Origin: Sulfuracidifex tepidarius
GTDB taxonomy: Archaea > Thermoproteota > Thermoprotei_A > Sulfolobales > Sulfolobaceae
Direction: 5' to 3'
DNA length: 64,000 nt
Assembly: GCF_008326425.1 (NCBI RefSeq)
Contig: NZ_AP018929.1
Span: forward strand, 2,308,875-2,372,874
Shown: one piece after another, positions 32,585 through 33,392 of the stretch
Numbering within the stretch: position 1 is the first letter of the stretch
How the letters are laid out: the number at the start of each line of letters is the position of its first letter
The notes under the pieces: generated by a model
Databases searched by the model: none
What the model was told of the DNA's origin: nothing
The model's input: the letters and a program-made list of their open reading frames with translations, nothing else
Program-made: the position numbers and the translations under genes

Positions 32585-32818
32585 ATGGCAGAAAGATACG
32601 CTGCGTATGTTTTGGTTGTAACTTCCGTGGGTAAAGAGCAGGAAGTTGCGGAGCAATTGAAACAGTTAAACTACGTTAAGAGGGTGGAAAACGTTTACGG
32701 AGAATATGACCTTGTTATAGAGGTGGAAGCTCCTAACTCTGGGGAACTTAAGAACGTCCTAGAACAAGTAAGGAGAAACTCCTCAATAATGAGGACGGTT
32801 ACTCTAATAATGATGTAA
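32585..32818 (+). CDS. Stand-alone Lrp/AsnC ligand-binding domain (RAM)
   Basis: A 77-residue protein comprising only the RAM/AsnC ligand-binding fold: strand YAAYVLVVTS, helix KEQEVAEQLKQ, then VKRVENVYGEYDLVIEVEAP and NSSIMRTVTLIMM. There is no helix-turn-helix, so it can sense amino acids or another small ligand as an oligomer, and may hetero-oligomerise with full Lrp regulators, as proposed for similar stand-alone domains in archaea. Follows the ABC permease by 29 bp; whether it acts on the transporter is unknown. Confidence 0.88.
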   Translation: MAERYAAYVLVVTSVGKEQEVAEQLKQLNYVKRVENVYGEYDLVIEVEAPNSGELKNVLEQVRRNSSIMRTVTLIMM

Positions 32819-32830
32819 ATTCAAGGAAAA

Positions 32831-32841
32831 TTTTTTAAAAG
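32831..32841 (+). promoter_or_regulatory. TATA box preceding the candidate RNA
   Basis: The sequence ttttttaaaag lies about 25 nt upstream of the first G of the structured region at 32861, the spacing expected for transcription starting at or near this G. Confidence 0.45.
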
Positions 32842-32860
32842 TTTATTCCGATCTTTTTTT

Positions 32861-32934
32861 GGGTCCGTGTGAAATGCTCCTGTGTCCCAGGAGCTAGTGA
32901 GCACGGAAGGGTCCCCTCTGGACTTCCTCGTTTT
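32861..32934 (+). ncRNA. Candidate structured small RNA with K-turn-like loop
   Basis: Between an Lrp-type gene and a ribbon-helix-helix gene lies a GC-rich island. TCCGTG (32864-32869) can pair with CACGGA (32902-32907); inside, GCTCCTG and CAGGAGC form a 7-bp stem with a 5-nt loop. The internal loop (TGAAAT versus TAGTGA) contains a GA step on each strand in the arrangement of a kink-turn. A second short hairpin (GTCC/GGAC) and a TTTT run follow. A TATA box is correctly placed. It is not a tRNA, and no box C/D pair is seen; an L7Ae-binding RNA is one idea. Confidence 0.45.
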
Positions 32935-33107
32935 AAGATGTTAGAGACGGCATGTATTGTATTACTCAGTTATTTTTCCTATCTCGTTCAGATTATTTCA
33001 GGGTAGAAGATAATTCGTATACTAAGGCCTAGATATATACTTCATGGATAAAAGATAGGATAAGGAGAGAACTCTGTGAGCTAGAGAAATAGTTTCAAAC
33101 ATGTTTC

Positions 33108-33392
33108 CTATTTATCTACTACTTCCACGTCTTCCTTGTCTTCCTCCATCATTTGCATCTTTCTCAGGAGCTCGTAAACTATTGCGTCCAGCTGAGCAAC
33201 TTTAGCTTCTAAAAAGGCTATGCTCTCTTCATACTTTCCTTTCTCTTCGTCTTTTTCGTTGTCTGTATTACCCTCTACTCCATCTTTTATATACATCTTT
33301 ACAAGGTCTGTCATTTGTATGCCCATTTCCTCAGCCTTCCTCTTCAGTTCGTCATACATCCACTCGGGCAAAGACAAATGTATAGTTGGCAA
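33108..33392 (-). CDS. Ribbon-helix-helix protein with coiled-coil tail
   Basis: A 94-residue protein. Residues 1-45 form a CopG/MetJ-type ribbon-helix-helix: strand PTIHLSLPEWMYDELKRKAE, then the turn and helix MTDLVKMYIKDGVEG. The C-terminal half is acidic and heptad-like (EESIAFLEAKVAQLDAIVYELL), forming a coiled coil. The start is TTG, with a GAGGAG Shine-Dalgarno eight bases upstream on this strand. It is divergent from a second RHH gene 147 bp away, which suggests a small pair of regulators or antitoxins, though no toxin-like partner is visible. Confidence 0.82.
   Translation of the reverse strand: MPTIHLSLPEWMYDELKRKAEEMGIQMTDLVKMYIKDGVEGNTDNEKDEEKGKYEESIAFLEAKVAQLDAIVYELLRKMQMMEEDKEDVEVVDK

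Follow-up and report, generated by a model that had tools for sequence, protein, structure and literature searches.

A candidate H/ACA-like guide RNA without a lower stem in Sulfuracidifex tepidarius and its family, probably directed at helix 69 of 23S rRNA

The window that we analyzed is a stretch of 64,000 nucleotides from Sulfuracidifex tepidarius. In it, a short segment with its own predicted promoter is flanked by an lrp-like gene (32585-32818, + strand) and a convergent gene (33108-33392, - strand). The lrp-like protein contains the Lrp/AsnC ligand-binding domain (Pfam, E = 7e-11, above the cut-off). The convergent protein has only a sub-threshold match to a CopG antitoxin (Pfam, E = 5e-4), so labeling it as a ribbon-helix-helix protein is tentative.

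A first-pass annotation of this DNA had proposed a promoter-linked structured RNA with kink-turn geometry, and the elements that it named (an AT-rich box, two stems, GA on both strands of the loop between them, a second hairpin, and a T run) are all in the sequence. The TATA-like box has a BRE-like AAGGAAAA upstream of it. The annotation had put about 25 nt between this box and the stems. From the end of the box to the GGG that starts at 32861 there are 20 nt; TATA-like boxes lie about 25 nt before the GGG in the copies of the RNA that we inspected by eye. The higher GC content is also borne out (61% across 32861-32922). The locus (32831-32934) probably encodes an RNA of about 65-75 nt, as judged from its sequence. 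Its features are:

32831-32840, + strand: TATA-like promoter box TTTTTTAAAA, identical in the sister genome G026
32861-32923, + strand: core of the putative H/ACA-like guide RNA (hairpin and 3' guide tail); covariance model match, with homologs in 31/31 genomes of the family
32864-32870, + strand: 5' strand of P2 (the GA stem), pairing with 32901-32907; double changes at 5/7 pairs across 26 sequences
32871-32872, + strand: kink-turn GA, 5' strand; G.A with 32900 and A.G with 32899
32876-32894, + strand: P3 apical stem-loop, GCTCCTG-TGTCC-CAGGAGC; double changes at 4/6 modelled pairs
32899-32900, + strand: kink-turn GA, 3' strand; partner of 32871-32872
32901-32907, + strand: 3' strand of P2, with the same covariation as the 5' strand
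32909-32923, + strand: 3' guide tail GGGTCCCCTCTGGAC; proposed pairing with 23S helix 69 up to U1917 (E. coli numbering)

The two stems of the first-pass annotation correspond to most of P2 (TCCGTG/CACGGA, 32864-32869/32902-32907) and to P3 (GCTCCTG/CAGGAGC, 32876-32882/32888-32894). We built a covariance model, R1, from 26 sequences from the family, including the window's. R1 matches the window at 32861-32922 with 73 bits (E = 2.1e-19); the window's own sequence is among the 26 in R1. Across the alignment, 93.2% of the pair cells are standard pairs and 9 of the 13 pairs show double changes. Nine such pairs were reached by 23 of 500 shuffles, and none of the 500 equalled the covariation score; further pair types were fewer than in the shuffles (15 versus 18.9). 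In P2, the window differs on both sides from the commonest pair at three positions, with U-A, C-G, and G-C where most of the family has C-G, U-A, and A-U.

Between the stems, G11.A49 is found in 25/26 and A12.G48 in 26/26 of the family sequences, and this tandem sheared G.A/A.G geometry supports a kink-turn, as the first-pass annotation had suggested. The P3 loop mostly retains the pattern NGUNC. The GA stem has nine layers plus G3.U57 (15/26) or G3.A57 (11/26, including the window), so ten layers are attained only if a G.U or G.A is counted as a pair. The predicted minimum free energy of 32850-32945 is -33.5 kcal/mol (z = -2.57), and 4/200 shuffles were as stable. Folding by itself is weak evidence, because the reverse strand lies about as far from its own shuffles (z = -2.53; 2/200 as stable).

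A DNA search of the 31 genomes of the family gave clear matches only in the two sister genomes (E = 2e-35 and 7e-15), both from the window's genus; the next best (E = 0.007) was confined to the promoter of the query. Nonetheless, all 30 loci that we examined around the lrp ortholog hold an element with this pattern, and in the 31st genome (G005) the homolog came from the R1 search. The core adjoins the lrp-like gene in 31/31 genomes, at a distance of about 700 bases in G010. It lies on the same strand as lrp in 4/31 genomes (the three of the window's genus and G016) and on the opposite strand in 27/31. Comparison of 32585-33392 with L034-L060 gives the impression that the RNA was inverted in place. 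The GGGUC that follows P2 is invariant (26/26 sequences), and by inspection we saw no conservation 5' of the GGG within the family.

Two elements of the first-pass annotation are more local. The second hairpin (GGGTCC/GGACTT, 32909-32914/32920-32925) can form in the window but is not kept in other genera, some of which could form unrelated small hairpins in its place (by inspection). A better reading is that the guide tail folds back on itself here. The oligo-T (TTTT, 32931-32934) exists, but it is weak and is not kept outside of the genus.

In other genera (loci L034, L041, L046, L051, L059, and L293), the putative guide RNA is followed on the same strand by a gene that resembles a C/D box sRNA, with the layout TGATGT - (A/G)CAG(G/A)GACG - CTGA - C'-like box - CTGA. 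Its first guide is complementary to 16S ACGUCCCUGC, and in several cases its last CTGA touches the stop codon of lrp. This gene does not adjoin the RNA in the window's genus. We dropped the idea that GGGUC pairs with the neighboring C/D sRNA, as the GGGAC of that sRNA belongs to the 16S-complementary guide. An early idea that the RNA binds Shine-Dalgarno sequences was also dropped.

The covariance search that the first-pass annotation had proposed found the RNA well beyond the genus, with compensatory changes in both stems. R1 matches 31/31 genomes of the family and 165/197 genomes of the order (E up to 1), and the matches span the full model across the order. Some of the matches outside the family are to other RNAs of the same architecture. 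A scan of genome contigs gave 8 loci, of which three are in unrelated organisms and are probably due to chance.

The first-pass annotation had stated that no known class matches, and this needs to be revised: H/ACA-like pseudouridine guides fit, and this is the most likely class for the RNA. The closest known RNA is PyrR205 (sR205; Rfam RF02803), an H/ACA-like sRNA of Pyrobaculum, which matches related RNAs in neighboring families and not the window's copy. In a permissive Rfam search of 15 loci, PyrR205 was found at the R1 place in two (E = 4e-4 and 0.12). Across the class, there were 42 listed matches to RF02803 in 40/229 genomes, and at least 18 of these 42 coincide with R1 places. Three genomes in the class (G196, G190, and G226) passed the RF02803 cut-off; two of these coincide with R1 places and the third lay outside the R1 search set. 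Across the phylum, the cut-off was passed in 14/398 genomes. Conversely, R1 weakly recovers 5 of 13 Pyrobaculum-type loci (E = 0.007-0.41). RF02803 did not match the window's RNA or any copy from the family (three matches within the family sit elsewhere, off the RNA locus), so the chain from the window to the family, the order, and PyrR205 rests on intermediates. In the window as a whole, nothing in Rfam reached the gathering threshold, and there were two chance-level matches elsewhere (E up to 10). A tRNA search found no tRNA gene, and by inspection the conserved core has no RUGAUGA/CUGA pair of C/D boxes.

The window's RNA has no lower stem (P1). There is no 5' strand for one, because the GGG is at the start position that is expected from the TATA box. 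There is also no 5' guide arm in the family, and the 5' flank is unconserved both in the family and in 11 Pyrobaculum-type loci. Several other copies from outside the family have a conserved 5' flank, ACCCCGG (GUG-ACCCCGG), which could pair with their own tail (GUGACCC/GGGUCAC in L105, for example) and so hide the guide. Many of the outside copies also have one extra base (C) before the GGG, relative to the rule of 10 layers. According to PMC4652768, productive guides have an ANA 14-15 nt after the stem. An ANA box is absent from the window at 14-15 nt from the pocket. L101 and 7/11 Pyrobaculum-type loci have an ANA triplet at this distance from the stem (14-15 nt), at the end of the complementarity.

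Other RNAs turned up in these searches. L107, L110, L178, and L283 hold another H/ACA-like RNA that shares this architecture but ends in a different tail, GGCUCCACCCCUAGG; G037 and G087 carry it alongside the putative helix 69 guide. At L098, L100, and L104, a P-loop protein gene (MYIILLGTAGAGKSTLA by eye, in L098) is closely preceded by an H/ACA-like hairpin whose lower stem covaries (GGGGACC/GGUCCCC, GGGAUC/GAUCCC). This hairpin might act as a leader element, or it might be a further guide.

To look for targets, we compared each tail to the 23S segment of its own genome (a partial segment in genomes other than G000). Outside the family, the tails read GGGUCACUCCCGGCC, GGGUCACCCCCGGC, GGGUUACCCCGGCC, or close variants. 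Among the 199-461 U's in the segments from seven such genomes, U1917 ranked first in 7/7 at 13 and 15 nt and in 6/7 at 10 nt. In five of these seven genomes, just 2-25 of 2000 shuffled tails did as well anywhere. In 11 Pyrobaculum-type genomes, the tail would pair without a break over ten positions (one of them G.U) as far as U1917. Base 8 of the tail complements rRNA base 1909 in 30/30 outside genomes (16 U-A and 14 C-G). The pair changes within one family: G075 (f10, genus g36) has C-G and the other f10 genera that were read have U-A. A small number of events may underlie this match. In 19 of the 30, the C at tail base 5 is placed opposite A1912.

The count of 30 genomes left out G079, G064, G086, and G066, whose tails lack the GGGU[CU] pattern and were treated as other RNAs; the first matches of G037 and G087, which have another tail; G042 (tail GGGCCACCCCCGGC), which fits at base 8 and has a C at base 4 opposing A1913; and RNAs from genomes that yielded no helix 69 sequence, such as G102, G157, G149, G131, G061, G121, G114, G133, and G054. 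(The rRNA similarity searches gave no match for 10/26, 12/23, and 8/38 genomes.) In several relatives (L167, L188, L189, L190, L272, and L273), the 23S similarity stops after CTCTTAA, immediately 3' of helix 69, which is what rRNA introns at this place would produce.

For the window's tail, the 23S segment offers 472 U's; U1917 comes first among them at 13 and 15 nt and 80th, 18th, and 5th at 6, 8, and 10 nt. However, shuffled tails equalled this in 610 of 2000 cases, so the window's complementarity by itself is not above chance and we take its target from the orthologs. Across the family, U1917 is not the best U at 13 nt in 13/16 genomes. The outer pairs of the tail have decayed in the window's family, where only GGGUC is invariant. 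The modified base there may be U1917, or else U1923 through GGGUC:GACCC.

We also scored the tails against 16S, with the 16S of G000 as a stand-in. The best 15-nt scores were 21 for the window's tail (versus 23 for helix 69), 28 for the Desulfurococcales-type tail (versus 35), 25 for G032 (versus 31), and 21 for the Pyrobaculum-type tail. A scan of 30 of the 45 tRNA loci, taken with short flanks, gave U-adjacent matches of 5-7 nt. Helix 69 pseudouridines have been reported at 1915 and 1917 in Haloarcula, and helix 69 modification is known in archaea more generally, according to PMC2584109 and PMC7991803.

Could the same H/ACA-like guide modify U1923 instead? In this register, GGGUC(A) would pair with the (U)GACCC that immediately precedes U1923, and the 5' strand of helix 69 would be gripped by the outer tail, leaving the loop bulged out. 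The innermost bases of the tail favor this: at 6 nt, U1923 ranks first in 6/7 outside genomes (fourth in G199) and 1-6 in 16/16 genomes of the family. Tail base C5, which is invariant in the 26 family sequences, would pair with G1918, while in the U1917 register it opposes A1912. When full duplexes are compared, the bulged form comes out best for the window, G017, and G032; for G023, it is GGGUC:GACCC alone. But the Pyrobaculum-type tails have U5, which pairs with A1912 within their unbroken run to U1917, and for both these and the Desulfurococcales-type tails, the best full duplex is in the U1917 register. Also, tail base 2 would make a G.U with U1921 in 16/30 outside genomes, and in G061 this base is A, which fits U1915 and not C1921 (positions taken without G061's own helix 69). 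Overall, we consider U1923 to be the unlikely choice.

A quite different function is less probable still. The kink-turn RNP might hold helix 69 open during ribosome assembly, as a chaperone or antisense RNA, without modifying it. The long one-sided complementarity outside the family and the lack of an ANA box in the window would suit such a role, but the homology to PyrR205 and the position of the kink-turn match pseudouridine guides, and pseudouridines in helix 69 are known in archaea. It is very improbable that the element is a 3' UTR element or transcription terminator of the lrp-like or convergent gene. The RNA does come directly after lrp in the window's genus, and it is close after the convergent gene in many others. 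But its strand relative to lrp varies, TATA-like boxes precede it in the copies inspected by eye, and the copy from outside the family at L112 adjoins tRNA genes.

We propose that the locus is the family's counterpart of the PyrR205 guide and that its tail directs pseudouridine formation to helix 69, at U1917 or U1923. On the basis of the sequence comparisons, we consider this to be probable and no more than that, in view of the window's 3' guide, whose match does not exceed that of shuffled tails, and of the 5' flank in several outside copies that could pair with the tail. By analogy with H/ACA RNPs, L7Ae would bind the kink-turn, and Cbf5, Nop10, and Gar1 would join, with Cbf5 on P2. The tail would capture unfolded helix 69 by its 5' side and loop (about 1902-1916 in E. 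coli), which would place U1917 in the active site for isomerization to pseudouridine. The guide would be one-sided. It lacks a lower stem and, in the window's family, a 5' guide arm as well; relatives from outside the family would use the duplex between tail and rRNA, of up to 15 positions, in place of the lower stem. A more tentative idea is that one-sided guides for helix 69, with the rRNA strand standing in for the lower stem, extend through the order and into the Pyrobaculum lineage, and that the guide of the window's family has shrunk to some 5 invariant bases, with the target possibly shifted within helix 69 from 1917 to 1923.

Single 3' guides and missing ACA boxes were reportedly described by Bernick in 2012. 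According to PMC4652768, it was specifically in Pyrobaculum that H/ACA-like guides lacking a lower stem had been detected; the paper also proposes two candidates of this kind in Pyrococcus. PMC5539422 counts 2 H/ACA and 21 unknown sRNAs in S. acidocaldarius. In a literature search that did not extend to supplementary tables, we found no prior report of this RNA in Sulfolobales. Our proposal would carry the design without a lower stem into a further whole order, one that includes the family to which the genetically tractable Sulfolobus belongs. It would also supply a specific candidate target for the design: a pseudouridine in helix 69, which lies at the subunit interface and is a key contact point of the ribosome. 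The proposed rule is one 3' guide with no 5' arm.

The window's RNA shares with PyrR205 a kink-turn hairpin and a single 3' tail that starts with GGGU, and in intermediate genomes the matches to both are at the same places. It differs in its tail (GGGUCCCCUCUGGAC versus GGGUUACCCCGGCC), in lacking an ANA box, in falling below Rfam detection, and in a P2 without the 2-nt offset that is present in the Rfam consensus. Canonical archaeal H/ACA sRNAs, such as those with the 10/5/9 and 10/6/9 folds from Pyrococcus, are described in PMC4652768. The likeness to these is that the kink-turn would lie about 9-10 layers above the pocket and that the proposed 3' guide starts at the foot of the GA stem; unlike them, the window's RNA has no lower stem, 5' guide arm, or ANA box. 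The guide Sso1 (for Psi35 of tRNA-Tyr; Muller 2009, as described in PMC4652768) belongs to the same guide class and to Sulfolobales, but it has a canonical 10/5/9 fold and a tRNA target. Archaeal C/D box sRNAs are also a class of kink-turn RNAs, and they differ from the window's RNA in having a pair of C/D boxes.
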